From Paramacrobiotus metropolitanus (lineage: Eukaryota > Tardigrada > Eutardigrada > Parachela > Macrobiotidae): a stretch of 33,193 nucleotides of DNA. The DNA lies in the NCBI RefSeq assembly GCF_019649055.1, contig NW_026570595.1, positions 1 to 33,193 of the forward strand, written 5' to 3'. The translations under genes and the position numbers were made by a program. Below, one piece after another: positions 3,280 to 31,264 of this stretch (positions within the stretch are counted from its first letter, which is position 1; each line of letters begins with the position of its first letter). The notes under the pieces are model-generated. The model searched no databases and was not told the origin of the DNA. It saw only the letters and a list, made by a program, of their open reading frames with translations.

Positions 3280-6200
3280 TCACCTGCGACTGGACGCCGC
3301 CCGTCGCAGAGCGCTGCGGCCCATTCCCACGCCCATTCCCCCCGTGGGCGGTCCCATGCTCTGCGCCGCGGTCATGGCAGCCGGCGGCGCACTGACACTC
3401 ACTTCCGGCATGGCCGGCAGGCCGCACATCCCGGTGAACATGAGATTCCGCGTATTCCACAGCTTATTCACCAGCTCCATCCCTTTGTTCTTCGTCGCCG
3501 CGTCAATCTGCAACAAAGACGGCCAATAATCCGGGGATCGTGGCAGGCAGCGGCGTGTTCTCCGGGTGGCCTGTAACTGCCGCTTCCATGCTGGCACCGC
3601 CGGACGGGACCCTCCCGCCATCCCGTTATTCTCCAGATATTTCAGGAAGACCTCGGTGTGCAGGGCGCGTTTGACCTTTGGAGGCTCCGGAGGCAGGGTT
3701 AAGAACAGCGGCCGATGAATCTGCTGCTGCTGGCGGATTAAATTCTGGATCTGCTGTTGTTGTGCCTGCATGATGGCCAGCGCTTGTGGCGGGATAGGGG
3801 TGGGGCCGGTGGGAGCGGCGGGTTCCGTTGAAGGCGCCGGGGTCGGTTCCGGTGGGGGTGGCGGGGCCGGCTGCGGTGGAGGCGGTTGGACGGCCTTGGC
3901 TGCCGCGGCTTCCAGTTCCGCTTGTGCTTTCACCTGCGACTGCCGCTCCAGAATGCGTTTTTCCAGTTCATCCACCAGGTCCAAATCGGGTTTGGAGCCG
4001 AGGCCTTTAAAGGAGATTCCCTCCAGGTATGTCAGACCGCGTTTCTTCAGTTCATCGTTGATGAACTGGCTCTTCCGTCGGGCCTCGCCGTCCCAGTACT
4101 TCCGGTCGGGAGCCGAGAGTTTTTTCCACATATCGGAAATTACGCGGCTGATTTCCTGTGAATAATGTCAACAAAGGATAAGAAACATACTCTACCGATG
4201 CAGACTAAATGAAGTACGTAACAGTAAGTGTTGTAGTACTTACCGGAAACGACAATCCCGGATGAGTTTCTTTAATCGTTTTGCGGTTCTCCGCTCCGTA
4301 CAAAATAAATCCGGACACTGTATATTTGGATTTCTTCGGGCTTTTCTTTCCCAACCGCCGGCCGCGTTTGGGTATTGCTTCCAGTGCAGAAGCAGCGGGC
4401 GATAACGGCGTCGCAAAGGAGGATATTTCGTCGGTGTCGTTGGTGGCACTCATCACGTCGTCGTCGTAACTTTGCACAGTTGGAGGAGATTCCTGAAAAA
4501 AGGGTACGAAATTAAAACAAATTGGGTTTGACTGCAAAATTATCCACTCCAGCCAGCAACAGAAGTGTGGTGTACGTACAAACTTTCAACAACCGAAATA
4601 AATTTTTATGGGATACTGCTAAACACAAAACCTAGAGTTCAATTCGTCTATGTAATTATGTGCTCAAATCACCCACTCAAGTACACATCAATAAAAATAA
4701 TCAGATGCTCAAAGAAGTCGAATTTCTTATAGCAAAATCGTACCTGGCCGTCTGTATCGCTTTCCACCAGTCGGCCACTCAATGCGGCCTCCAAGAACGG
4801 CGACACCACGCGCTTCGGATTGACGGGCTTATCGAAGAAGTACAGTTCATCCTCCGTCGCATGCGATGAACTCGTCGTAGATACATTTAGAAACCGTGCT
4901 CCCCGGTGCCGTTTAAACAGCTGACCATTCTCCTGGATCTTGGCCTCCATAATGTACACCTGGTCCTCGGGGATCTCCGTTTGCCGGCATGTGGAGAAAT
5001 CTTTCAGCGTCAACACAGCACACCGGCTGGTTAACTCTTCCACGGGATGCGATGCCTCCGTCACTTTCTGGTACACTTCATTGGCGTAGAATAATTTAGC
5101 CGGAGAGTGCTTTTCCAGATCTTTGGGGAAGATGAATACCGTTCCCGATACGAATGTTTGACTCCTGAAGTGAAAAGTGTATGCTGTAACGCGCGTCAGA
5201 CTATTGGATTTTTAGTTATTGTTAAAAATAAAAACTGTTTGAAAACGCAGACCACCAAACAGTTACAGACTGGCGACTACACTAGAATGACTCCCGAATT
5301 TAAGCAGTCAATTTTATAGCACTAAACGGAATGAAACCACAAGCCAAAATTCTACAATTTGCTTCAAAACGACAAGTTCAAAGATCAAGGAAACATTATG
5401 GACAGTTTGGGCAAAATGCGGCAGTAGCGATACCAATGACTGTAGCAATAGCCGTCCCGTGGTCCGTCTACGAGACGGCTATGGCTATAGCAAACTGTCT
5501 TATAACTCAAGCAAATGATTTCGTTAATTTACATCAGCTAAAAACCTGCCAGCCAGCGAAAATGTACATCTCAGTTTTCTGAACTTACAGCTTGGAATAA
5601 ATCTTGTCAATTTTGATGATGTGGTGCGTGGTTTCGTTCTTGACCAGTACGCAGTCGCCAATCTTCAAGAAGCCCAACGGTGAATCCTTCTGTTCATAAA
5701 AGGTGTAATCCGGATCGGGACTGGCACTTTTGGCCAATACAGGCTCGCGGAATATATCGATAACCTCTGAGTCTGGGCACTGCGCTAGGTCCTGCTCACC
5801 AGCACCCGCGAAGACCGAAGGAACGCGGCCAGCCGTCAACGGCTTCTCCCGTGCCACCAGAACAACCCGCGAATTCTCCGGCATTTTCCATACCTACAAA
5901 AACAAACTTATCCATAAACTTAATGCAGACATGCCTGATAAAAACGTCACGCTAACAATGAACACATGCCGTTGGCCTTCATAATCACAATTTACTGAAT
6001 ATGGAGCATGATCTCACAAAACTAAACAATGTTTGCAGTCACAACCACAGACGAAACGCAATGGACGTGCTGTTAACAAAGAGTTATTTTTTAATTTAAG
6101 CGTGCGAATTGCAAAGGGTCAAGTTAACTTAGACTTGCAACAAGTAAAGCTTTTCCCATTATTGCTTTTACTTTGTATTCAACGTAATTAAATCTTTCAT

Positions 6201-9200
6201 TCTAATTAAAATCTCAATACTTTATTTTAATTATTGTGAATATTTAATAGATTACGCAGTACGCACCTTGATCTTCCGGAATGTCTTTAGCTTGGTAACG
6301 TACCGCGCATCGCATACATACACGTCCTTATAATCAAACCCGACCGGTTTCATCTTAAAGTAGTCCTTCGCTCCCATAACGTAGCATTTGCCGATAATCC
6401 GACTGGGTACATGCGTCTCCACCATATCGCTCTTGAACACCTCCTTCTCGTAGAACTTCCGCGAGGCCACATGGAACGTCTCATACGGGCGCAACATATA
6501 CGACCCTTTGATCAACATTACCCCGCTGCCGTCGCCACTCATCAGCAGCTCTTCAATACAGACGATCAGCGGCTGCTTCAGTTTTTCATACGGTTCAACA
6601 TAGACAAAATCCCCGACGAAGTACTGTTCTGCCCCCACGCTGACGGAAAGGGCCTTCCGATTTTGATTCCGAGGTTCCGGCGGAATCGGATGCCGGTGGC
6701 GGGGTTTTCGGCGGTTCCGCGGAGACCGGTCGGCGTTTAGCCTCCTTCCGTTCTTGCTCAGTGGATTGCTGGAATTGGCGTTTAGTGTAGAGAACGGCCG
6801 GGGAGACAAATTTCTCGCCTTTAGCACCGCATAGCTCATCGCGTTTGTTGATGAAATGCTCGTGCAGGGCGACCGCGTCCTCGTAGGTCGAGGAGTCTGG
6901 CTGGGCGCTGAAGCGGATATTTTCCAGGCAGCGGAAGACATCGTCCTGTAAACGGTCCAGACGGCGGTAACGGCCGTGGTAAACGTTGGAGCGGATGTTT
7001 TCCAATGTTAAAGGCGGTCTAAAACCAACAACATTTATTTAAACAGTGCAGAAAACAGAAGTATGCCCACTGTCTATTCTGTCTACATTGTACAGTACAT
7101 AAAGCATTTTGTAGTTCTACCCTTATTATTCGTAAGAAGTATATGGAGACACAAAAATTTGAGCTATTTTAATCAGTGCACCTCAGCGCAGGCAAATCGA
7201 TATGTGGAGTACATGGCTTCTGTTGAATAATTTAATGGACAAAAGTTTTTTTTAAAAAAACCGGAAAATGTTATGCTCAACGGGTCTTACGTAGATTCAT
7301 CCACACTGCCTTCACTGCCGCATTCCGATTCCGCGTCGACACAATCTCCAAGGAGTTCAGCTAAATTCCGACCATTGGCATCTTCGAATTTCATCAAGCT
7401 ATCCATAAGAATTTGCAGCATCTCCTGCACTTTCTGGCGCATTCGGCACCTCCGAAGCGAAGATGCCCATATTGCGTGCTTTTCCATGGTCGCATCCAGC
7501 AGGACCAGTGCATCCTAAACGTTTAAAGTTCTGCCAACCACCGCCAGAAACTGTAATAGTTTCATGCTTTCGTGTTACATACATTGTAAATCTGCGATTT
7601 CGGTGAATTAAACGTTGCCGCGTTTTCAAACATTTGTCCAAAGTCTTCAATAATGTCGTCCATCGTCGGGTACTGATTCTGCTGGATGCGGCTGTAGATC
7701 TTATCCAAATCTACCGGCTTCTTAATAACATCGTAATACGCTGGTAATTCCTGTTCCATGAGTAACGAAATATATTAACAAGAGCGCCTTATTAAAAATA
7801 TAAAAATAAAGGTAAAAGATAAACGTATATTAACCGAATGAAGATGCAATACTAATTTGGATGTAAAGGCATGCACTCTACTTCGAAATTTACTGTAGGA
7901 TAAAATGACTTTATTTACCGCTTTCAGTGGCAAAGTCTGAAACATTTCACTTCGCTGTCTTCCGGTTTCATCCGTTAATTCGCACACGTATTCGTACAGT
8001 TCGATCAACGAGGCCTGCAGCGGCGACGTTGGAGTGGAGAACTTTGAGATCTGTAGAATGTAAGTAAAAGTTCCATTCATCTTGTAACGTACTGTAGTAT
8101 AAAAATTTTACTCATACTTTCGTGCGCTGGAAGTATGTCGGCGCTGACTGCCACTGCTTCCGCTTTCTTCTGTCGGCGACACGCCAATGACGCGCAAGGA
8201 TTTCTTCACAATTTCTTCAAATTTCACTGCATCGTTATAAATGTCGCTTCCTTTAAAGATAAGCAATCCAGTTACACTGGCAAAGCAGAAGAACACAAGA
8301 CACCAAATCAAGTTAGCATTTATCTTACCTTCTTCGTTATACTGTTTTGCGTTGTCACATAAAAGTTGGATGTCCGCCAGCAACACCTCTTCCGTCCCAA
8401 ACTGCAAAATGAAGGAAACCATGCCGATAACTAATTTTACAAAAACAACAAATCAAAACATTCCAATAAGTCTTTCGAACGAATGAATAGAGCATCAACT
8501 GAGATCGACATTTCAAGACAAAGAAAAATTACCGATATTTGACAAATTACACCATAAAAGAGGAAAACTCACGTTACTTTACCTTGTCATTCTGGACTTT
8601 GTTAACCAGTGTTTTGATGTCAATAGGCTGCGAGATAACGTTATAATAATCCGGATAATCCTTTCTTCAGCGGCTTCTCCAGGAACATTTCCACCGGATA
8701 GATGCCCTTATCCTTGTATTCCAGGATGCCGCGCAATAAAAATTTCATACGCTTACGCAGTGACGAGTCATCGTATTCCGGCAGTAGTTTCTCACTGAGT
8801 GACGTTCTCAAAGGCGAACTGTTTTTATCAATTTCCTATCAAAGCAGACAATATAACTGGCAAGGAAAGACAAACATTTGCACCAACCGACGTACTTGTT
8901 GGAATTCTTTCAGTCGTCCTTCTACAAAATTTTTTATCCGCTCCGAATCGCGATAGATGGAAGACTTTTCGTTGTTGAAGATCTGCGCATTCTGACACAT
9001 GAGTTGCAGATCAAGGATCATTTCATCCAATGCAATATACAATCCCTTCTGCGAATTTCATTTAACAAAAACCATAAATTATGCTCTAACAAATGTTACT
9101 GAACATAAACAAACTACGAGTACCTTAATTTTCCTCTTGATCTGGGACAAAGCGACTGGCGATCGGATAACGGTGTAATATTCCGGATAGATCCTGTAAA

Positions 9201-11291
9201 GCGACACCACATATTTCAATCACAATGTCAGAAAACAAGGTTGGTCTTTAACCGAAACTTTTCACGGATTAAACGCTGTTCATCCTGATTTTAGCAAATC
9301 ATGAAATGCATGTTCATATTTATGTAATACAACGTACTTTAATCGAACATGATAGCTGCAAAAAATACGAAAAAAATTCCAAACCGTACTTTTTGCTGGG
9401 CAGTTTGAGGAACGGATTGCATATAATCCGCCCACCAGGGCCCTTCAATTTGGTGACCGCATCATACAGCTCCTCCATGGCCGCCGAATTGTTGCCTTCA
9501 CTGGTCGGCTCCACCTGACCGGACTCGTCATCGGAATCCCCGGCCATCACTTCATCCGCCACCTCATCGACTTCCTCCGCAACCCCTTCCCGCACTCCAT
9601 CCTCCTCGCCGTACTCCAGTGCGGCGTAGATGGCCGATGCCAGCTGCGTCTGTCTGCGTGTCCTTCAGCAAAATCACGATCAGTGCGGTATCTCACGGTA
9701 TATAACCAACTCAAAGATCACCAACAACACAAACAGAACACCCAGAAAGATTTGAGAAGAGAGAAGAGTCAACTCACCGTTCCTCGCTAAAATATATCCC
9801 ACACGGAAACATGAAGAAACAAGAAGGCTTGGTAAGAAACAATGAGATAAAAACAAACATATCATGCACGCCAGCACAGTTGTCCAGACTGCTGAACACC
9901 AACGGCTTTCATGAACATAAACTGGGTAATAAACTGTGCAACATACCTGACTGTACGCTCGGTCGTGCGAGCTGATTCTCGTACATCGAATTCGTTTTTC
10001 TTGTTCAGTGTTAAGCGTTTCAACATTGCAGCATCCTGAAAAGGCAAATGTGTGTTCATCAAACGTTTTACTGAATAAAAATGGGCTAACGTAAATTAAT
10101 TATGGTACGATTCTATGCAGCGAAAGATTGTATAAAAGTTTATATCATCTGTTCAATGAACAGAAATTAAGTTTTCCAGTGAACTCAAGGGTAATTGTCT
10201 TTCGTATTAGCAATTAATGCACAAGAAGAGCGCAAACTGCAAAACAACAAAACTGTAAATGCAAACTTTACTTATAAAACAACAAAAATCATAAGTACTC
10301 GTACTTACGACTTAAGAATCACCATTCTATAAAGAACTGAAGGATTCTTTTAAGTCTGAGCCATTTGTCAAAAGAAAATAACAGCGTGAAAAATACTAAC
10401 AGCGTGCATAAAAATGATCTATAAAAATGTAAAAATTCTGGAAACTTGGCAAGCAACAACTAATCCACCAACCTTATGGATCTGCGATGCTGGCGAGTTG
10501 TAGTCGAGTGCATTGTTGAACATCTGCACCAGATCCTCCACCAGTGCATCCAGCGTCCGATACTTTCCAGCCTGAATCTTCATGGCAATCTGCTTGAGAT
10601 CGATGGGATTACTGATGACTCCATAATAATCCGGGTAGATGGTGCGCGAAGGGAGCAGGGTGAATTCGGTGCTCATCTGTGCGCCTTTTTCGTCGGTGTG
10701 CTGCACGACAACAGTGAAGAGCTCCTCCAGTAAATCTTGCGAATTGGGCGATGGAGGCTGTACAATACCGCACAAAATGAATTAATTAACTATTTAACTA
10801 TAACGAAAACTAAATAAGCAAAATTACAAATCAGCTAACTGCTAATACCAAAAAAAACTTACATATTAATGGTTCTACTAAAATCAATCAATCAATTTTA
10901 AAAGTTAAAGTATGAATGAAAAGGGAATAAATGCACAAAGTAGGAATAAAATTGATCGTGGAAATCACCAGGAAATGGCATAATGGCTTTGCAGTTAGCA
11001 TTTGCAAGCATCTGTTATTTTCTTGCAGTTAGTTATTAGTATGGAAACGTGAACGGCGACGTCTACCAGGACCAGATGCAATTTATTAAATTCACAAAGA
11101 ATGAAGTTCTTTATGCATCCTACCTGAACATCGGAGGACGCCGTGGACGCCTCCCGTGCCTCCTCCTTGCGCATGCGTTTCGGCCGCGTTGTCGCCGTTG
11201 TGGTGTTGGATGTGGAGCTCGTGGAAGCATTGGTGTCTTCGCTGGCACGATCGTTCGTTGAGCTGCGTCGAGCTCGCTTGGTACGGTTCAT
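3280..11291 (-). CDS. PBRM1: Polybromo, PBAF chromatin-remodelling subunit (PBRM1/BAF180)
   Basis: Seventeen exons: 11291-11124, 10757-10473, 10035-9947, 9653-9390, 9193-9124, 9048-8896, 8835-8583, 8401-8329, 8250-8118, 8050-7919, 7750-7583, 7514-7291, 7018-6267, 5893-5589, 5164-4744, 4492-4244, 4155-3280; about 1537 residues. After a basic Ser/Thr-rich N-terminus come five bromodomains (YPDYYGVISNPIDLKQIA, YPEYYTVIRSPVAL, YPDYYNVISQPIDIK, LPAYYDVIKKPVDLDKIY, and a sixth-type domain with PPLTLENIRSNV and YRRLDRLQDDVF). They are followed by BAH1 (VGDFVYVEPYEKLKQP, FYEKEVFKSD), BAH2 (LKIGDCVLVKNET, EIPEDQVYIMEAK), an HMG box (SGFILYGAENRKTI, MWKKLSAPDRKYWDGEARRK), a Pro/Gln-rich linker and the C-terminal LHTEVFLKYLENN domain. 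In this family the bromodomains bind acetyl-lysine and target the PBAF SWI/SNF complex. The first domain aligns with human bromodomain 2, so bromodomain 1 is absent. Single-base indels: an extra base at 8660-8661 and at 6632-6636, and a one-base phase mismatch between exons 9 and 10. Introns of 300-440 bp show nothing else. Confidence 0.95.
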
Positions 11292-12246
11292 TTTGGGCGT
11301 CAAAAGATCCGACAAAAAACTGAGAAAGAAAATTCAATTCATAACTGATCTACACTTCAGTCAGTCATAATAATAATAATCACAAATCAACAATCCGACG
11401 CTCCAAACTGCAGTTTACCAAGGATCAATGCCACTCATGCTGCAGCATTTGCGTCAGACGATATTCACGGTGCAAATTCATCCGTCAAACTCGCGCCAGG
11501 ATTCGCAACACTCAACGAGATCTCGGACAATCACCCTGCAGGATACGGATTTTCTGGAGAGGATCTTGAGAAAAAGGCGAAATTATTCAGGATAACGTCA
11601 AAACATTCAAAATTCAAATGATCAAATCAATTTTGACTGAAAAAGTGAAATCAATCCACCATGATCTTGCCAACATTTTTCAGATCTGTTGATTTCCATC
11701 GGGATATGCACTGGAATCCAGGAGACAATGAAAATGGAATTCCATTCCGTGAGGAGAAATGGATGAACAAATTAGTGGGATTCCATTTTAACTTGTGCTA
11801 AGCCTGGATGGCGCGAACGCTCGTGCGCTTCCTTTGAAAGTCTGCAGACTTGTTTAAACGTGCCTTGGAGATTTCAAATTTGGACTGAATCCAGTCGGTT
11901 GGCATCTGAGCATCTCATAACGTTGAGAATTGAGAATTGATTGTTTACAGTTTTTTACAGTAACAAATTGTTTTCGAATCTCCAGTGTTTCAGATTTTCT
12001 TTTTTTCTAACGTGTTCAACCTGTCAGTCCGTTATTCTGTAGTATTCTTATGTTATGCACGGGATACAGTCTTCACTCTTCAGTGGATTGCTAATACTTG
12101 TTGTTGAATTCGCCGTTGATTTGTGAAGCGCAGGATGCAGTGGATGCTTTGGATTTTGAAGTCTTGAATCTTTGTGACTTTGCCATTTTGACTTAGTATC
12201 ATAGTATGGGATGTGATTGGGACATTGTCTAGCACTGCCATTCAGA
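11292..12246. promoter_or_regulatory. Divergent promoter region between polybromo and the KNL1-like gene
   Basis: The two start codons face away from each other 955 bp apart, so both 5' UTRs and promoters must lie here, unless there are distal non-coding exons. I see no TATA box at a convincing distance and no coding exon. The polybromo ATG at 11291-11289 was preferred over the in-frame non-ATG extension to 11315. Confidence 0.6.
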
Positions 12247-15200
12247 ATGGATACTTTGTAAGTATTCATACGTTTAAGTGCGTTCTTGAAGGTCGAATTG
12301 TTGAGTATTTGTGATGGTGTCACTGCAGACCAGCACCCAGCGGATTGCCACCTGATGGACCTCGTCGAGGACGCAGGTCGTCGGTAGGTGTTTGTAATCA
12401 TCGTTTCCTGCTTTATGTTTGAGCTATCGTCTAGTTTGCAATGTGATCTAATGAATAAGCAAGCATAATAATTCGTTTCCAGATTATGAAACCGTTCTCT
12501 GTATTTGGAAATGATGGAGAAAAGTTCAGCTTTAACGCAGAAGCTGCGGACGCCAAAAAACGACGGCGCGTCAGTTTCGCTGCTAATTATGAACTCAGGT
12601 GAGTGTAGTGTTTTTTGAAAAACTGTTTGAAACCAAGAAACTCGCGAACAAAATTTTGTGCAAAAAGCGTAGAGTGTTGAACTTCGAAATTTCATTGGAG
12701 CTATTAGTATTATATCTCGATCACGACGTCATGTAACACAGTACTGTAACAGTTGAGTAACTTTCAGTGTCAAAAATTGAAATACAGTAGTTTTCGCTTG
12801 CGTGTATAAAATATCTGTAATTTATGACAGTTTCTGTTTTCAGATTATTTTCTGTAGTTACAGTGTTGTTTGGTGAAACTTTTTTAAATCTGTACATCAA
12901 GCATGAGAGTTAATATGTTTGTGTGCGCTGTTGTAATGTGCAGAAAACGTACTTCTGCTTTAATTTGTTTAAATTAACGATTATATTTTGGTATTTACAT
13001 TGATAACAGTTGGCGCTGTTTGTTAAGTTCGGGCTGTTAAATAAAATTCAATCTTTCTTTGTCACAGGAACTACTGCAAGGAACAACCTGGACTGGAAGA
13101 GGATACGGCAACATTGCCCGTCAGTGATCTGGACCGAGTGTCCCCGCTACCCGAATCGGAGCGGAATGAAGCCAGCCCCATGAAAATCCACCACAACAAC
13201 GACGACACCTCGCCGCTGCCGGACGAGAACGATTCCCCGGATCCAACGGTTACGCCATGCAGTCGCGCATGTCCTCCGTCACCTTCATGGATCTGTCCAC
13301 GCTGACGGATGGCCAAGTGGTGGAGCGGCGTCTGGAGCACACCCGCCACAGCATCCATGACATGAGCATCTCCGACAATGGAGGTAACTGACTAGGGATG
13401 CAAGCATAATTTCAGTTTCATTCCATATGCATTTTATGATGACGCGTGGCTCCGTGCGCGTATAAAATGAAAATAATTTTAGCTGAATGCAGTTAAAACG
13501 AAGAAAGTAAAGAAGAAAGGAAAAGAATTTAGGTTAATGCAGTGGAAAACAGGATAACCGTACGAAGAATTAGTTCTTTTTACGTACTCTTCATATTTCA
13601 GTTACATTTGTTTGTGTGTCAAACTGGTAAAAACTCTGAAGAACTCATAAACTTTTTCGTAAACGTGCCTAGACCGCATGCATCTCATCTGTAGGTGATA
13701 CATCCAGCAATAGCAGCTGTGATATGCACAACACCAGCTTGTACCATCACATGAGCATGGAGATCTCCACAGATTCCCTGTCCGATACGAAACCGCATTC
13801 TCCGCTGGTGGGAAAAGGGATGTTTGAGGAGCAGACGGGGTTGGGTGGCGACGGCAACGATTTCAGCCTGTTCGGCTTCGGTTCACCTAAACCGGAATCG
13901 CATTCCTTTGTCATGGCGACGGAGATGGACACGCGCCGGAAAACCTCCTTGGAATCGCATTTCTTGGAATCGAATTCTTTTGTCGTCGCGTCGGAGGTGG
14001 ATGTGAGGAGAAAGCCGTCGTTAGAGTCCGATTCCTTTGTAGCTGCTTCCGAAGCTATGACAGTTCGGCAGGCTTCGTTGGAATATCAGAAAGATCGTAC
14101 GAGTGAGTTAATTTTGTCGCTTAATGATTTTGTTAAAAGTTGGATAACCGCTGGTTTGAAGTTAAGACGCCAGTGTATCAGGAAATTGGAATTATCAGGA
14201 TGTGCAGCCTTGATTTTGTACAACTTTATTTTGGGAAGAGTATTCCGATTTGTTTTATGGATTTTTAGTTGCTATTCATCACGAAAAAGAGTTGACCTTG
14301 TTGAACGATATGCCCCCGGAGTCCACTTCCTTTATACTTGCTTCGGAAATTGTGACCAGTCGGAAGTCATCGTTAGAATATCACAAAGATCGTACAAGTA
14401 AGTTAATTTTATCACCATGTTGTTGAATACTCAGTAGACGATCTGCTGCTTTAACATTTTGCAGTTTTGTTTCGCGATTTGTTTGTATAATTATCGGTTA
14501 CTATTCACAACTGGAAAAAAACTAAATCTGTTAACGTTAGTAGCTTTAGCCGACAAATTTTAAAATAAAAGAAACGTAAGGACTGGCACATGCTGCTGGA
14601 CAAATGTCCGACGATTGCAGACAGCCGCCGTTACTTTGTGCAGTTTGTTTCTGAAGTGATACCCAGTGAGTATATAGTCTTTTCTTGTTATTATCAGTTA
14701 CTACTAAACACGAAAAGGAGCTGACCATGTTGAATGACATGCCGTTTTCAATTGCTTCGGAAATTGCGACGAGCAGAAAACCATCGTTGGAATACCAGAA
14801 AGATCGAACAAGTAACCCAAGTTTGTCACCTAATGTTGTTGAAGGCTCACCATCAGTAGATAACCTGCTGCCTTACTTTATGATTTTATTTCGTGAGTGA
14901 GTACTCATTGTTTTAATAACCATCGGTTACCATTCACCACGGAAAAAAAACTAATTTGTTATAATGTTAGTAGGTTCAGCCGACAAATTTTAACAAATTA
15001 AAAGAAGCGTGAGAATTTAAACATGCTGCTGGACAAAGTTGTCGGACGATTGCAGCCAGTCGCCTTTACTTTGTGTAGAAGTAGTTTTGTTTTCGGAAGT
15101 GAGGACCAATATTCAGCTGTTTTCTTGTTATTATATTCAGTTACTATTAAAAACGAAAAGGAGTTGTCCATGTTGAATGACATGCCCCTGGATTCCAATT

Positions 15201-18200
15201 CGTTTTCAATTGCTTCGGAAATTGCGACGAGCAGAAAGCCTTCGTTGGAATACCAGAAAGATCGTACAAGTAGGTTAAGTTCACCACCTAATTTTTTTGA
15301 ATGTTGAACAAGTTTGTTAAACAATTGTGCAGCCAACAGCCTTTACTTTGTGTTTGTGCAGTTTGTTTCGAACGACTATCATTCTTCCGTAGTACAGATT
15401 TTTTTGTTTCTTATCAGTTACTGTTAAACATGAAAGGAGGCGACCCTGTTGAATGATATGCTCCTGGATTCCAATTCGTTCCTCATTGCTTCGGAAATTG
15501 TGACGACCAGAAAACCGTCTCTGGAATGCAAAAACAATTTGGAGAGTAGGTTGATTTCGTCATAGTTACACTTTTCAAAATGCTAACAGAATGCTAAACG
15601 CCTTACCATAATATTTTAAAGTTAGGCTAAAGCAAGGTTATAAGAAAAAACGGAAGCATAAAGAACTGAAGGCGTGCGCCCCGAGAATGCGCGCATCTTC
15701 CACAGCATTGACGTGTGTATGTCGCAAGACTCGAAACTACTGTACACTCGTCAAATTCTAACATTTTTTACATAGGCTTCAGTCAATCTTTTTTTAACTC
15801 TTTTCCATTTGAATTGTCAGTTGCTGCTCATTCGGAAAAAGAAGTGACGATGGTCAACGATATGTCGCTGGAAGTAACCGCACTTTCACCAAGTGCTGTC
15901 GACATTCCTGTGCCGGCAACGTCTGGAATGGACATTTCCATTGAAACTGCCACAAACCCTGCAAGTTCGGCGTCTCCATTACCATTGTTGGACGCAGTTT
16001 TCGCCGGTTAGTTAGAAACTCTGTCATAAATGACATATAATGCATAGATTAATTTTTACCAATTTCCTTATTCGCTAAAGGTCATAGGATCAGCTTATAC
16101 TTAAGTTTACGCACTTCGTACAGGTACTAGTGCAGTATAATTGTCCGTTTCAGAAAAACGGCAGCATGAGCACAGCCAGTCACCTCGAACATCGGAATCT
16201 CTCAACCAGTCAATCACCTCGGAACAGAATCGGACACCCGACGAACAGTCGTCACGGCTCAGTGTTCATGATATGAGCATATCGGATAGTGGCGGTGAAG
16301 CTAGCATCTCCTGTGTTAGCCTGCAGAACACCACTTTACATCAGGACATCAGCAGCAGTATGGAGATTTCCACCGAATCCACGCCCGTCTCAGACTCGAA
16401 GCGCCATTCGTCTCCCGGCGTCACGCAAAACGGGCTGATCGGTGCGGGAAATGAAGGGAACGATTTCAGCCTCTTCGGACTGGGCTCTCCCAGACTGGAC
16501 TCCTTGTCCTTTTGTCATGGCTTCCGAAATGGATCCGCGACGCAAATCGTCTGTGCCAACGGACTTTGTGCAATCTGATTCATTTCTCGTTGCATCCAAA
16601 GTGGATGATCGGAGAAAACCTTCACTGGAATCACAAACTACTCCGCGTGTTTCTGATACTTCAGGAAAGTTCTCGTTGGAGCGCAAAAACTCATCTGCTA
16701 CTGGAGACGAAAATCCGAGCAAACCCTCACGAGATTCGCAATCTATTTTCTGATTGCTTCTGAAACTCTAAGAAAATCCCTTGTTGGAATGCCAGAAAAC
16801 ACCGACATGTGAGTTATTCGCTGTTTTTGCTGTTTTGTACACCCCGCTGCCAGTTGAAGTTCCGTCTCAGTTATTGCAGTCTGGTTTTGTTTTATTTTTT
16901 AGTGACTATTCATCAGGAACCAGAGCTGACGATGATGACCATACCTCCGGAGGACATCACGTCCAGACTAGCAGATGTCGAATTTGATGCGCCGGAACAG
17001 TTTGAGATACCGGAGCCATCGGGAATCTATACTGCTAACAAAACATTACAGACCAGCTATGAGGATGACGATGGCCGGGAATCTCCATTGCCCTCTTTTA
17101 CCACATTTTTCCAAAGTATTTATACCAGCATTATTGATATTATCATAGTACTTTTAAAAGAAGGAGTTTTGTATAATTTTACTGGTATTATTTAATTGTT
17201 AAGATTACTGGAAATTATTATTATTCTTGCAAGTAGTATTCTTTCAAACGAAGGAAGGCAAATTTGGGCTGTTCTGTATTTTTTGACGTACATCCATCGT
17301 AAACTTGAACTGAAATCATCTGTTTCAAATTTTTAGGGCAATACCAACGTGACAACAGCTTGTCTCCAGTTAACAGCCGGACATTTGTCGAGTACTCATC
17401 ACCATCATCCAACGACACACTGTCTTCCCTGGACACCACCGTATCCGAGCCGCGTTCGGGAGATTCCGATGAAGTCATCCCGCGGAACACCCGAAACGTT
17501 CTACTCGATTTGGAGAAGAGTCTTGTGCAAGGTAAAATTTAGTAGCGGACAATCAGCGTTATTTTTATCGGTTTTGGAATATGTTGGTCTTTTAGAAAGC
17601 GTTCAGGAAGACAGTGGGCCATTGTCGCTGGCCTCTTTATTGAAAAGTGTCCGTGGATTGGGTGTCACTGTAACAGAGAACGGTAGCGGTCCGGTACCAT
17701 CTCAGTCGTCTCTCGCTGTGGATGCCGGGCGCTCTTCGCCGTCCGTGCAAAGTATTAACTTTAACTGGAACCGTTACAATTCTTTAATGTTTTTAATTAT
17801 GGGAAATTATTTTAGATGAGGCGCAGCTTCAGAGTGGTCCGTCGTTTGTCCGCCGGCGAACGTTTGTTGACCTTCCTACGCCAGTCTCCAGCAACGATTC
17901 GTTCACCTCGTTGGAAACCACGTTAGTTGAGCCGAATCAGGAGCTGTCTGAAGATGAAGAAAAGCCGGAAGATGTACGTTTAACGTTGATTTGATAAAAG
18001 TTGTTATATATGTTGTCATAGCAGTGCGTTACGTTTCAGAGTGAATTCCTGAAATTCTTCCGCTTGCAAATTGCCCGTGCCTTCCTGTTGTGCGATGTAG
18101 TGCGACGAGATCCAGCACGGTATTTATAATTTCATTAATTTGGTTATATTAACAAGCCTAGTGTGTCGCTTAGAGATGATGTTATTGACGTATTTTGATG

Positions 18201-19141
18201 GTGACTTCAGGTATTTTTTGACAATAACCGGACAGCGATCGGTGCTGGTTTTATTCCTCCATATCCCGTTGGCCGTGCCCACCACTGCGGATGCTCTGCG
18301 GCTTATCCACTGGGACTTGCAGAAATTGACTGGTCGAATCAGGTGAGTACTTATTTTACGATTGCATGCGAAAGAAAAGGAAATATAACTTGTAGCATAC
18401 AAACTTGTAGCATTTCACGGACCGCAAAACTGCATTTCACGGATTCTGTTTTGTGTTTAACAAATACGTCGATTTATGATGGTTGCATCGTTCATTTCGT
18501 GAAGTGTGAACTAGGGATGATTTATAGCTGAGCCAGAGCAAGTATTTTTGTAATCGGAACAATACTGGCGTTCCTTCCAGGTTACTGGTAGCAGCAGACA
18601 ACTTTCCTGTATTATTTTGTTGCTAGCTGCAGCCGAATGATTTAAACATACCCATTTTATCATATTATATTACGTTGGTATTTCAAATGCATGTTTGTTA
18701 CTGTTGGTCAGTTACACAAAATATCATGATGGATATTAAGCCGGCTGTTGCGGCGGTTTTAATTCATAATGTTGATATATCTATACCTTCGTCGCGGTGG
18801 TTGATTTCGGGTGTTGTTATTATCGTTTAGTTTAGTTATCATTTTGTATTGATAACTAAACAAAACGATAATAACAACACCTGAAATCAACCACCACGAT
18901 GAAGGTACTGTATCATGTTGTATGACTTTATCCTTCTGACAGTTACCTTCCTCGGTTTGCAGGTTGGACAAGAGTTCATAAGGCAGCATCGTCGATACCG
19001 CGTAAAGGTGATTTCGTGGTGCGTCTGGTGGAGAAGATCATAGCTGCGCAGCGGTCGGAGGAACAACTGATTCCCCCTCGACTACCTCCCCCACAGGAAC
19101 CCCCACCATTTTTGGCGGAATGGCTAGGGAAGAAGAACTAA
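12247..19141 (+). CDS. KNL1: KNL1/Spc105-like kinetochore scaffold with MELT-repeat exon array
   Basis: Eighteen exons: 12247-12257, 12329-12383, 12483-12598, 13068-13383, 13695-14102, 14269-14397, 14698-14811, 15141-15269, 15418-15545, 15821-16006, 16154-16808, 16903-17115, 17337-17531, 17596-17751, 17816-17973, 18040-18119, 18211-18342, 18943-19141; about 1126 residues once the indels are allowed for. The N-terminus reads MDTLPAPSGLPPDGPRRGRR followed by SSIMKP and RRRVSFA, matching the SILK and RVSF PP1-docking motifs of KNL1. The middle holds about ten MELT-like motifs (MDLST, MEIST, KELT, EVT, MDIS, PELT), which in this family are phosphorylated by MPS1 to recruit BUB3-BUB1. Exons 5-14 have phase 1 introns on both sides, which permits exon duplication. 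Exons 13 and 15 carry a second repeat (RTFVEY...SLDTTVSEP and RTFVDL...SLETTLVEP). The C-terminal ~130 residues (FLKFFRLQIARAFLLCDVV, VLVLFLHIPLAVPTTADALR) are where an RWD domain would be expected, but I do not recognise one, nor a long coiled coil. Frame breaks: 13235-13238, 15433-15435, 16510-16513, 16746-16749, 16781-16782. Confidence 0.85.
12368..12581 (+). other. Bipartite PP1-docking region: SILK-like and RVSF motifs
   Basis: RGRRSS ends the exon at 12383, and IMKP opens the next exon at 12483, giving RRSSIMKP. RRRVSFA follows at about 12558-12581. Human KNL1 has RRRHSSILKP followed by SRRVSFAD at the same relative positions. In that family both motifs recruit protein phosphatase 1, and the RVSF serine is an Aurora B target. 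The match covers order, spacing and flanking arginines, and it is the best single argument for the gene's identity. Confidence 0.85.
14269..15545 (+). repeat. Four tandem exon-intron units of the KNL1-like gene
   Basis: Exons 14269-14397, 14698-14811, 15141-15269 and 15418-15545 are copies of one 129-bp unit; the second lacks 15 bp. The unit reads HEKELTMLNDMP, then SNSFxIASEIATS, then RKPSLEYQKDRT. The introns are copied too: the words ccgacaaatttta and catgctgctggacaaa recur in the first two at a spacing near 430 bp. The duplications therefore took exon and intron together. The fourth copy is the most divergent (KEAT, SLECKNN) and has lost one A at 15433-15435. Confidence 0.9.
18786..18905. 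mobile_element. Short foldback MITE in the last KNL1 intron
   Basis: A 56-bp left arm (18786-18841) and a 56-bp right arm (18850-18905) are reverse complements with about four mismatches, around an 8-bp spacer. TA flanks both ends (18784-18785 and 18906-18907), as expected for a TA target-site duplication. There is no coding capacity. The element is in intron 17 of the KNL1-like gene and does not touch its splice sites. Confidence 0.8.
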
Positions 19142-27650: not shown

Positions 27651-28414
27651 ATGTATTGTGCTAATAGGGAACGTAGTAGCAATGGAAATGAACAGTTTAA
27701 AGGTATAAAATGTTCTGTTATTAAACCGCCACAATATATAAATATTTATGTTGTAAAACACAAGACAATGTACAGGCAAAGAAAAACGTACTTTTAATGA
27801 GCAACAAGTGGTACCATACCAATCGTACACCGCTATCAGAGACGGAGAGATACAGTAATTAACAGCGGTAAATCATCATCATGGTTACAGGCTTCTTGGT
27901 ACTTTAGCTGGCCACATTAGTATTGCATAAAGGCTTCCGATATACTTTTTGTGGCCGTGAATCTCTGACAGTACAAGTAGTAAATTCACAGTATATATCC
28001 CAACAGTTATAACTGAATAGCCAATAGCTTAAAACAGTACAGGGCAGGCGCAGTCAAATTTGCTGTACGTAATTTGTTTCTGGAGCGGGATGAAGGCAAA
28101 ATGAGCTTAATTAAGTAAATCCACTGGACATTTTGACACGAAGACATTCCATCACCGTATTTATTCAGCTACGTACGTTCGCTGCTCTGCTTCCTGCTGA
28201 ATTTGACCTGGCATGACGATGGCGGGTATTACTGGAAATGGCATATCGAGTATAACGTTGCAGAGCTCTTCGATTCCGGTTTGCAGTAACACAAGTAACT
28301 GCAAAATATTTAACGCGCTACCAGTTTTCTTATTTAATTTACGAAATATGAATACATTATTAAATATTTATTTCATAAAAGGCTAATAGTGCATGGTAAT
28401 ATTGACCGCTCACA
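27651..28414. other. Intergenic region, no feature seen
   Basis: AT-rich, no plausible exon on either strand. It must hold the promoter of the first receptor gene; no clear TATA box is seen within 60 bp of the start. Confidence 0.45.
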
Positions 28415-29367
28415 ATGAATATCGAATCCGTGCCGTGTTTACGAAACGCTAATTTTTCCACTGATGTAATCGTACCGGCACCCACTGCGTTAGCAATATT
28501 TGCATCAATCAACGTTGTTTCCGATATTATTTGTCTCTACGTCCTGTCACAGTGGAAGAAACCGTCTCCGCCATCTGTACTGATCAATATTGCGGGTTGC
28601 ACTGGTCAGTTGCTCTACGGCATCGCTTTATTCTGCCTCACCATTGCTGACCTTTCGCTAACTAATCCGCCAACGTGGATTTCCTCAGCAGTACCGTCGG
28701 CAATAATCTTTTTCCAAATCTACCAAAGTGCTTCCGTCCTGTTAATTGTTATTGACCGGTGGTCAAGCTTAGAGTTTCCAGTATTTTATGTCGGTCACGT
28801 GTCCCACCGCGCCATTGCTGTCTTAACCGCTGTAATAGTGCTGTCAAACTTATTTATCTACGCACTGATTTTTTCAGTATATCAAAACCAGTTTTACTTT
28901 TCCACGCAAATTCATCTGACGATATTTTGTCTGCAAGAAACCTGGTGGATTGTTTACACTGCCCTTTATTACGCTGCTTGTTGTATGCTCACCGCGACCT
29001 TTCAAGTGCGAATTCTTGTGCTGGCAGCACGTCAACGTCGTAAGCGGAACAAGGGCAAAAACAACGCACCACAGTTGCTCGTATCGCACACCCAATGCGA
29101 TGCTTTTAAGAAAAACGTTGCGGTATCTGTTCACGTCGTCGTGATGATGCTTCTAAATTTTCCTTTCGGATATTGATCATGTCATGGTACATTCTTACCG
29201 GTTTAGGGTACTTAACACCAGTGGAGCATTTGCTGCTCTTATATTGCATAATGCTAAAAGACGTAATCATTATTCCTGTGTTCGTTATTGTGTATCCTCA
29301 GTTTCGCAAAATTTGTCGGAGAGTATTGAAAAATTTTTACAGACGATTGTTACAATTTACTGTCTAA
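28415..29367 (+). CDS. Seven-transmembrane receptor 1, rhodopsin-type, orphan
   Basis: Single exon, about 317 residues. Hydrophobic segments are visible at about 20-46 (FASINVVSDIICLYVLSQW), 56-80, 93-116, 133-156, 178-203 and two more after residue 235. DRW at 114-116 (LLIVIDRWSS) occupies the E/DRY position at the end of helix 3, and a Lys/Arg-rich loop (AARQRRKRNKGK) precedes helix 6. Helix 7 reads IIIPVFVIVYPQFRKI: the NPxxY asparagine is absent, and the Pro-x-x-x-x-Tyr pattern is only similar. The ligand is unknown. One T is missing at 29158-29161, and the frame resumes at once with LTGLGYLTP, matching receptor 2. The 3' end lies in a 139-bp tandem duplication. Confidence 0.8.
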
Positions 29368-29585
29368 CGTTATTGACCGCAGTACCAGTCAATATCGACG
29401 AACTGTGCTTTTCTTGCTCTGAATTAAAAACGTTGCACTGCTGACTAAAATTTGTCGGAGAGTATTGAAAAATTTTTACAGACGATTGTTACAATTTACT
29501 GTCTAACGTTATTGACCGCAGTACCAGTCAATATCGACGAACTGTGCTTTTCTTGCTCTGAATTAAAAACGTTGCACTGCTGACT
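29308..29585 (+). repeat. Tandem duplication, 139 bp x 2, at the receptor 1 3' end
   Basis: 29308-29446 and 29447-29585 look identical. The first copy contains the last ~20 codons and the stop of receptor 1. The second repeats them after the stop, so the protein is unchanged and the copy lies in the 3' UTR. Confidence 0.9.
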
Positions 29586-30279
29586 AATACGCTAAACTTG
29601 ACTAGACCACGATAACTATGGTACTGGTATGTTTTGCAGATAATTACCGATGTATTAGGTTAAAACCGCTACTTGTATTTTGCAAGTATCCACAATTACA
29701 TCACATGAGACTAAGCGAACTGACTAGGTGAAAGGTCACCCGTAATGCATCTGTACAGACCAACATATTATTGTTTTCTTCAAATTAGACTATTCTAAAG
29801 GTTCGTGAGAGCAAGTTGTAGCTTGCACGCAAGATTTTACAGTTGGTTCAAGCTGTTCGGAAAAACTAGAACGATCAGTTGCGTACCGAAACTGGAACAT
29901 CAGTGCATTGTGTGTATTTCAGCTGACAGTTTATATCAAAAATGACAAGTGCAAACTGCAACACATTTTTCAGCTTTCTGTCGGACAAGATGATTTGCAT
30001 TTTGTTTTGCCCAGAGTATCATTAATACAACCGATCTTCCAACCGTCATGAAATTGTCCCAGTTGCGCACTATTTTAGCTTATCAACCTAATACAACGAA
30101 GGTATCGTGAATCACGGATCGTCTCCCATTAAATCGTTCGAATTCGGCATTCACTTATAACTGTATATCTGCCGCCGATCTGCAAGTCATCGTCGACGTA
30201 GAAGGGCGTATGGCACGTTTATGCAGATTTTATTATTGAGTTCTGGTATCAAAAATAGGAAAACAAAACTTTCGAAATT
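29586..30279. other. Spacer between the two receptor genes
   Basis: No gene, repeat or RNA seen. It presumably contains the receptor 2 promoter. Confidence 0.45.
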
Positions 30280-31264
30280 ATGTCTTGTCTTCTGCCTTCT
30301 AATTCTTCACTAGTCAAGCCTTCGTCGATCTCAACCGCATTATCTGTATTCGCGTCCTTTAACCTTGTTTCGGATATTGTATGCTTATACATTCTTTCGC
30401 AATGGAAAAATCCTGTACCGGCTGCCGTGACCACTAACGTCGCTACCTGCGCTTTGCAATTGATATATGGGATTACGTTACTGAGCGTTAATGTTGTTAC
30501 TATGTTCTACGATAACGCTAATACACCCACCTGGATTCCTTATGTTTTTCCCATCGCAGCGACATTTTTTCAAGCTTGCTATAGTACTTCGCTGCTGTTC
30601 GCCATCACCGATCGATGGATCAGCGTAGAATTTCCTGTGATTTTATACCGGACACGTTTCTCATCGATTTGTCATTGTTGCTAACATAATCAACATTGCA
30701 TTCAATCTGACTGCGTGTGCGATAATGTTTTCAGCTGGTCGAGATAAATTAGATTTTTCTTCGGAAATGCGGTTAATGATTATCTGCTTACGTGAACCAT
30801 GGTGGATTGGTTACAACGCGGTATATTACGGTGCCAGTTCCTTGCTAACCTTGACCTTTCAGCTTCGTGTTCTCGTACTGGCTGCACGAGCGCGTCGTAA
30901 GAGGAACAGGATTAACTTCAGCGATAAAAATACTGCAGCTTCATCCGTTAAATCTACAAGTGTTCGGGCAATAGTGGTGGAAGCGATTACCGCATCCATA
31001 CGTTTCCTTATCATGATTGTTCTGAACATGAGCTTTCGGACAATGGTGGCATTATGGTATATTTTAACCGGCATCGGTTATTTGACTCAAGAGCAACATT
31101 TGATTCTCATGTACTGTTCTATGGTCAAGGATATTCTGATTATCCCGGTCTTGTTCCTCATATATCCTCCGTTTCGCAAAATATCGTGGAATGTCTGGAC
31201 GCGAATTTATGGTGTCCTGGGCCAACAGTTGCCATTGCTTTTCCAAACCAAAAAGGGAACGTAA
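30280..31264 (+). CDS. Seven-transmembrane receptor 2, paralogue of receptor 1
   Basis: Single exon, about 327 residues, clearly homologous to receptor 1 along its length: FASFNLVSDIVCLYILSQWK, PTWIP, TDRWISVEFPV, a loop starting GHVSHRF, LRVLVLAARARRKRNR, LWYILTGIGYLT and KDILIIPVLFLIYPPFRKIS. DRW lies at residues 111-113, and again there is no NPxxY asparagine. It is an orphan receptor, probably from a local gene duplication, and divergent enough to be old. One T too many at 30641-30644 breaks the frame between helices 3 and 4; both flanks match the paralogue. Confidence 0.8.

Follow-up and report, generated by a model that had tools for sequence, protein, structure and literature searches.

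A KNL1-like gene in the tardigrade Paramacrobiotus metropolitanus with an array of duplicated, frame-neutral exons

Introduction

The MELT repeats of KNL1 (Spc105/CASC5), a scaffold of the kinetochore, set the strength and responsiveness of the checkpoint through their number and sequence (PMC7292645), and are subject to recurrent gain, loss and divergence (PMC7292645, PMC10577578). Human repeats are flanked by TxxΩ and SHT motifs, and priming through SHT is thought to be unique to vertebrates (PMC7614552). Yeast BUB3 binds the Met and the phosphothreonine of the motif: it is reported to bury the Met in a deep pocket (Phe236, Phe238, Trp278, Arg283), and Arg217, Arg239 and Arg242 are given as its acidic-side residues (PMC3779320). 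Human KNL1 carries a coiled coil and tandem RWD domains, and C. elegans KNL-1 is described as lacking the latter (PMC5371998). C. elegans is also described as lacking the kinase MPS1, with Plk1 acting in its checkpoint (PMC5949338). Here we describe a KNL1-like gene of P. metropolitanus, found at positions 12247-19141 of a window that comprises positions 1-33193 of contig NW_026570595.1 (GC content 42.8%), in a genome assembly of 169.8 Mb and 533 contigs.

The reading that we prefer, with a probability of roughly 60%, is that the gene encodes a KNL1 with three kinds of site: Met-headed sites (M-sites) that would dock BUB3-BUB1, KELT heads that would form a second, acid-directed class, and SFxxASE-RKxSLE units that may act as basophilic modulators. 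Only the anatomy of the gene, the constraint on its exon copies and the presence of some of its partners are demonstrated. A literature search found no paper combining tardigrade, kinetochore and KNL1.

Identity of the gene

The gene model lies on the plus strand and has 18 exons (Table 1). Splice sites were picked by hand so as to keep the frame, and all 17 introns start with GT and end with AG. As the original prediction proposed, the gene is very probably KNL1, judging by its motifs. The protein model opens with MDTLPAPSGLPPDGPRRGRRSSIMKPF...KKRRRVSFAANYELR, where SSIMKP (residues 21-26) and RRVSF (residues 50-54) constitute the SILK-then-RVSF pair of PP1-docking sites, in the same order, context and N-terminal position as in human KNL1. 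The alignment of this N-terminus with human KNL1 17-69 (human letters confirmed against PDB 8ppr) has a local score of 49, not reached by any of 2000 shuffles (maximum 47). The pattern M[ED][LIVM][ST] is found four times in the protein model against 0.20 expected (0/2000 shuffles). These M-sites are MDLS, MEIS, MDIS and MEIS, in exons E4, E5, K5 and L2 respectively, and all have Ser as the acceptor. Two are preceded by a T-x-x-[YH] stretch (pattern T..[FYWHLI]), a number reached in 1/2000 shuffles; no SHT flank was seen in the protein model.

Several results weigh against this identification. The strict form M-[ED]-[LIVM]-T is absent from the protein model, five pieces of the protein, when scanned against Pfam, gave no KNL1 family match, and a profile search of the genome with Pfam RWD_C, MELT and Spc7 gave nothing over the cut-off, leaving the KNL1-like locus unmatched. 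The C-terminus of the model is not significantly similar to human RWD-C in pairwise comparison (377/2000 shuffles reach the score), and no coiled coil is apparent in it, as judged by eye only. The human KNL1 N-terminus as a genome query missed the locus, where an intron interrupts the motif; its sole match was on contig C27, at an expectation value (E) of 5.6. Finally, the reading frame is broken by one base in five places (one each in E4 and K4, three in L2).

The Ser-only M-sites are better regarded as a deviation from KNL1 than as grounds for exclusion, as divergent sites are reported to be common in the family (PMC7292645, PMC10577578). Because K4 is constrained relative to the other copies, the frame breaks would most simply be read as errors of assembly. 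A comparable break, at a place where no intron stands out on inspection, interrupts the adjacent minus-strand bromodomain/BAH gene, and errors of assembly could thus account for those of the KNL1-like gene as well. A PDB sequence search with the two termini found unrelated molecules (best E 0.28 for the N-terminus and 0.13 for the C-terminus) and no RWD for the C-terminus. Human RWD-C as a genome query had no match over the cut-off, an empty result that is uninformative alone. The C-terminal SSIPRKGDFVVRLVEKI looks similar by eye to human SKVPLENNYLKNVVKQI; the alignment test failed and likeness is not claimed. Two weak DUF matches of K1-K3 in Pfam, below cut-off, were set aside as chance.

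The lack of RWD or Pfam support, together with the five frame breaks, would also fit a serine-rich protein that docks PP1 but is not KNL1, its MEIS motifs being fortuitous, or a decaying copy of KNL1. We consider either very unlikely: SIMK and RVSF share the order, context and position of the human pair, the ratio of nonsynonymous to synonymous substitution (dN/dS) among the K exons is well under 1 even in comparisons with K4, DNA matches to K1 are found nowhere outside this locus, and the same kind of break in the neighbouring gene makes assembly error possible.

Exon duplication and its age

K1-K4 are four head-to-tail exons between AG and GT, in phase 1 at both ends if one base is allowed in K4; K5 and K6 are later relatives whose common part with K1-K4 is the head (repeat family D3). 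This arrangement is as originally predicted. K1 as a DNA query has four matches in the genome, all at this locus, including K3 (80%, E 2.7e-25), K4 (81% over 72 nucleotides, E 7.5e-11) and K2 (70%, E 1.4e-10). Homology extends to the introns: the one between K1 and K2 and the one between K2 and K3 are copies (72.5% over 324 nucleotides, E 2e-44), and the K3-K4 intron matches these two in pieces of 42 and 26 nucleotides only. The repeat unit of the K1-K4 array is a whole exon, with at least one intron copied along with it; the prediction that introns were duplicated too is borne out at full length for the first two introns and in fragments for the third.

Other duplications are seen in the same gene. 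The end of E5, with its donor, shares homology with the 3' half of the K exons (79% over 95 nucleotides). A larger block, the end of E4 plus E5, has L2 as its second copy (score 303, shuffle maximum 67). A third duplication, of the pattern RTFV...SSND...SL[DE]TT, relates M1 to M3 (score 76, shuffle maximum 50). Candidate dead K-exon heads in the K1-K2 and K2-K3 introns (14490-14539 and 14884-14939) were not accepted, the best three of 36 comparisons being reached by 1, 2 and 3 of 300 shuffles. No paper on KNL1 with 'tandem exon duplication' came up in a literature search.

Synonymous divergence (dS, Nei-Gojobori method, NG86) among K1-K4 ranges from 0.25 (K2-K3) to 1.37 (K1-K4), and dN/dS over the six pairs from 0.13 to 0.40, with bootstrap upper bounds of 0.48-0.93; these estimates are from 37-43 codons, with bootstrap replicates of zero or saturated dS dropped. 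The copies are thus under purifying selection, and the suggestion that they are unusually recent is not supported. Their encoded sequence is less uniform than was claimed for every copy: RKPSLEYQKDRT is exact in two of the four (K2, K3), K1 having RKSSLEYHKDRT and K4 RKPSLECKNNLE, in addition to the shorter K2 and the off-frame head of K4.

The ten consecutive exons from E5 to M2 are all symmetric, in phase 1 at both ends, when one base is allowed in each of the exons with frame breaks (E4, K4 and L2). Gain, loss, duplication or skipping of any of them would therefore be frame-neutral, and copy number could grow in this way.

Table 1. Exons of the KNL1-like gene model (window positions).
Feature	Position	Strand	Description
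E1	12247..12257	+	start codon, MDT; GTAAGT donor after ATG; in-frame join to E2
E2	12329..12383	+	...RRGRRSS, 5' half of SILK-like PP1 site
E3	12483..12598	+	IMKP...KKRRRVSFAANYELR; completes SIMK; RVSF PP1 site; matches human KNL1 N-terminus
E4	13068..13383	+	VTFMDLST, IHDMSISDNGG; one-base frame break near 13262
E5	13695..14102	+	phase 1-1; TSLYHHMSMEIST (TxxY + MEIS); GNDFSLFG block; homologous to L2
E5 (continued)	13695..14102	+	three SFxxA[ST]E units, ends RRKTSLE, RRKPSLE, RQASLE
K1	14269..14397	+	phase 1-1; KELT head and SFILASE-RKSSLE
K2	14698..14811	+	phase 1-1, five codons shorter; KELT head and FSIASE-RKPSLE
K3	15141..15269	+	phase 1-1; KELS head and SFSIASE-RKPSLE
K4	15418..15545	+	head EAT one base off frame, codon before unreadable; SFLIASE-RKPSLE
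K5	15821..16006	+	phase 1-1; KEVT head, then GMDISIET (M-site)
L2	16154..16808	+	second E4-end/E5 block; HDMSISDSGG, TTLHQDISSSMEIST, GNDFSLFG, RRKSSVP, RRKPSLE; three one-base frame breaks
K6	16903..17115	+	phase 1-1; PELT head, acidic tail
M1	17337..17531	+	SRTFVEYSSPSSNDTLSSLDTT; duplicate of M3
M2	17596..17751	+	PLSLASLLKSVRGLGVTV
M3	17816..17973	+	RRTFVDLPTPVSSNDSFTSLETT; duplicate of M1
M4	18040..18119	+	start of C-terminal stretch, ordered-looking by eye
M5	18211..18342	+	YFLTITGQRSVLVLFLHIPL...
M6	18943..19141	+	SSIPRKGDFVVRLVEKI, stop codon; acceptor at 18942 keeps frame

KELT heads and basophilic units

The position before Glu in the heads of K1-K6 is Lys, Lys, Lys, unreadable, Lys and Pro, so that Met is found in none of the five readable heads. 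Glu at -2 and a Ser or Thr acceptor are present in all six, K4 being read past its frame break, and the +1 residue is always Leu or Met (KELT-L, KELT-M, KELS-M, EAT-L past the break, KEVT-M and PELT-M). The heads fit the classic PLK1 motif, D/E-X-S/T-hydrophobic, of which Mps1 shares the -2 preference (PMC3076450). KELT-like matches number five against 0.33 expected, all from one founder, and count as a single event since they are copies.

KELT heads show no convincing sign of descent from the M-sites. Fifteen protein comparisons of the two gave no signal (lowest 78/500 shuffles), which is weak evidence from short, divergent stretches, and none of ten DNA comparisons of the same short stretches was convincing (lowest 7/300, L2 against K6). 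Derivation of the heads from MEIS segments was therefore not accepted, there being no homology signal. KELT appears instead to be a look-alike of the classical MELT motif, with the M-sites as the sites of classical type, and the claim that KELT is the MELT of this protein is not supported.

The basophilic pattern R[RK]x[ST][LIV] is found nine times in the protein model (0.28 expected, 0/2000 shuffles): once at the N-terminus (RRSSI) and eight times in the array, with four in K1-K4 and two each in E5 and L2. One further unit of E5, RQASLE, is off-pattern, and L2 has weaker relatives, GKFSLERK and FLIASETLRKS. Being copies, the units do not contribute independent events to these counts. Across nine aligned units the invariant columns are four, F, A, R and S, and thus SFxxASE is as much a part of the unit as RKxSLE. 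Units of this type without a KELT head are found in E5 (three) and L2 (two, RRKSSVP and RRKPSLE), and the KELT-like heads of K5 and K6 stand without a unit. RKxSLE therefore accompanies KELT in K1-K4, where an E-[LVA]-[TS]-[LM] head is joined to a single copy of the SFxxASE...RKxSLE unit, and is not its constant partner elsewhere; in those four exons each unit could plausibly carry a second phosphosite, of basophilic type.

These observations bear on a further possibility, that the K exons are docking motifs for another partner, with SFxxASE plus RKxSLE as the core and the likeness to KELT having arisen by chance in one founder exon. The four invariant columns would fit it, as would the single founder of the heads (families D3 and D1) and the lack of convincing M-site ancestry. 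We regard it as somewhat unlikely, since all six heads (K4 past its break) retain E-x-[ST]-[LM] while the surroundings diverge, and the host protein is KNL1-like. It overlaps with our preferred reading, and the odds of the two are not exclusive.

Candidate partners and proposed mechanism

A BUB3 is encoded on contig C10, with 57% identity to human BUB3 over 127 amino acids (RVAVEY / YAFKCHR / VWDVAHKK). It fits the spacing of the yeast binding residues, mapped by hand, with Tyr, Lys and Lys replacing Phe236, Arg239 and Arg283, and its PDB match to yeast BUB3 starts at yeast residue 217. By PDB score it is closer to an 'mRNA export factor' than to yeast BUB3, and BUB3 and RAE1 are not separated among the matches listed (the best 60 of 173, with no human BUB3). 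The identification as BUB3 is founded on the identity to the human protein. Two MadBub TPR loci are found over the Pfam cut-off in the genome. The human PLK1 query gave PLK1-like pieces of 58% identity and of 63%, the latter interrupted by one stop, and a top-scoring kinase of 38%; the human Aurora query gave Aurora-like pieces of 56-62% identity.

With the human MPS1 kinase domain as a query, 140 of 487 candidates were scored and at least 134 kinases matched at E <= 1e-6, the best with E 1.4e-15 and 31% identity. No MPS1 was recognised among them, which is not proof of absence: the best two, one within a run of Ig-like domains (HLDLKPED) and one with HRDLKCQN, are not MPS1-like by eye, and the other 132 were unread. 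The degenerate MPS1 pattern HSDLKPxNF had no match in the genome, and missing matches here are likewise not proof of absence.

In the model built on the original prediction, each K exon is a true MELT unit phosphorylated by MPS1 and obligately paired with an Aurora B site, and the array is a recent expansion. Glu at -2 and the Ser/Thr acceptor, kept in all six heads, are consistent with this, as is RKxSLE in K1-K4, and the divergent yeast motif IDLT is reported still to recruit Bub1 weakly (PMC7292645). The model as a whole is nonetheless improbable. Met is missing from all five readable heads, although BUB3 buries that residue (PMC3779320) and the genome's own BUB3 retains the residues for binding. 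The heads are without convincing homology to the M-sites, RKxSLE and KELT each occur without the other, MPS1 was not recognised (most kinase matches being unread), and dS is 0.25-1.37.

In the mechanism that we prefer, phosphorylated M-sites would dock BUB3-BUB1 as in other KNL1s, a role suggested by the retention of the binding residues in BUB3. The KELT heads would be acid-directed phosphosites for PLK1, or for MPS1 if it is present, and may serve either as weak BUB3 sites without Met or in another role. The SFxxASE-RKxSLE units would be basophilic sites, of Aurora or PKA type, modulating neighbouring sites, and skipping of symmetric exons by splicing could tune the number of sites per molecule. 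To the points weighing against our interpretation must be added that these kinase roles are read from sequence patterns and have no support beyond them.

A bolder version would be a split MELT code, in which the M-sites lost Thr and the exon-multiplied KELT sites lost Met, each KELT being paired with a basophilic site, the array being read by PLK1 and Aurora without MPS1 and splicing setting the number of sites. We consider this doubtful and offer it as speculation.

If the gene is a KNL1 with site-bearing, frame-neutral exons, its site number would be adjustable by splicing. The array may also serve as a natural experiment on the residues that BUB3 requires, and an absence of MPS1 outside nematodes, if true, would bear on how essential this kinase is.

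Other features of the window

The last intron of the KNL1-like gene contains a near-perfect hairpin (18784-18907; 58-nucleotide arms, 93% complementary, with an 8-nucleotide loop) that resembles a small inverted-repeat element. Head to head with the gene, on the minus strand, lies a Polybromo-like gene (3280-11333) with bromodomains at 10419-10781 and 6595-7038, BAH domains at 6252-7007 and 4669-5211, a weak HMG match (3280-4167) that stays below cut-off and a one-base-type frame break near 6650. Two adjacent receptor-like genes (28406-29176 and 30259-31264) are mutually alike by eye; the first is a weak match, below cut-off, to the nematode chemoreceptor family Srbc. A 139-bp unit is present twice at 100% identity at 29308-29587, within or just past the end of a gene of seven-transmembrane (7TM) type, and is either very recent or an assembly duplicate.

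Comparison with known KNL1 proteins

Human KNL1/CASC5 (PDB 8ppr chain K; 6czo chain B) and the tardigrade model share the N-terminal SILK/RVSF pair, M-[ED]-[LI]-[ST] motifs, some of them after TxxΩ, and, at a distance of some 20-25 residues from MELT- or KELT-type motifs, basophilic R-K-x?-S-[LV] sites. They differ in that human KNL1 17-1231 contains 11 motifs of the strict form M-[ED]-[LIVM]-T and the model none, and in that neither the coiled coil nor the tandem RWD of the human protein (PMC5371998) was detected in the model. The spacing inside the basic site also differs, being RKS in human and RKxS here. Human KNL1 17-1231 has four R[RK][ST][LIV] sites against 0.19 expected (1/2000 shuffles), and in three cases an M-site follows after 21-25 residues, whereas R[RK]x[ST][LIV] is not enriched in it (1 against 0.17 expected, 314/2000 shuffles). 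A basic-S-L site near MELTs is thus not special to Paramacrobiotus, and the contrast once drawn with the flanks of known KNL1s holds for the exact RKxS pattern and not for basophilic sites at large. The MELTs of human KNL1 lie mostly within one large exon, unlike the array described here, part of which is spread over separate symmetric exons. C. elegans offers comparable negatives: its KNL-1 is described as lacking tandem RWD (PMC5371998), which was not detected in the tardigrade model, and the species as lacking MPS1 (PMC5949338), which was not recognised here. As in the evolution of KNL1 repeats in general, the repeats here turn over; in this gene, the duplicated unit is a whole exon.

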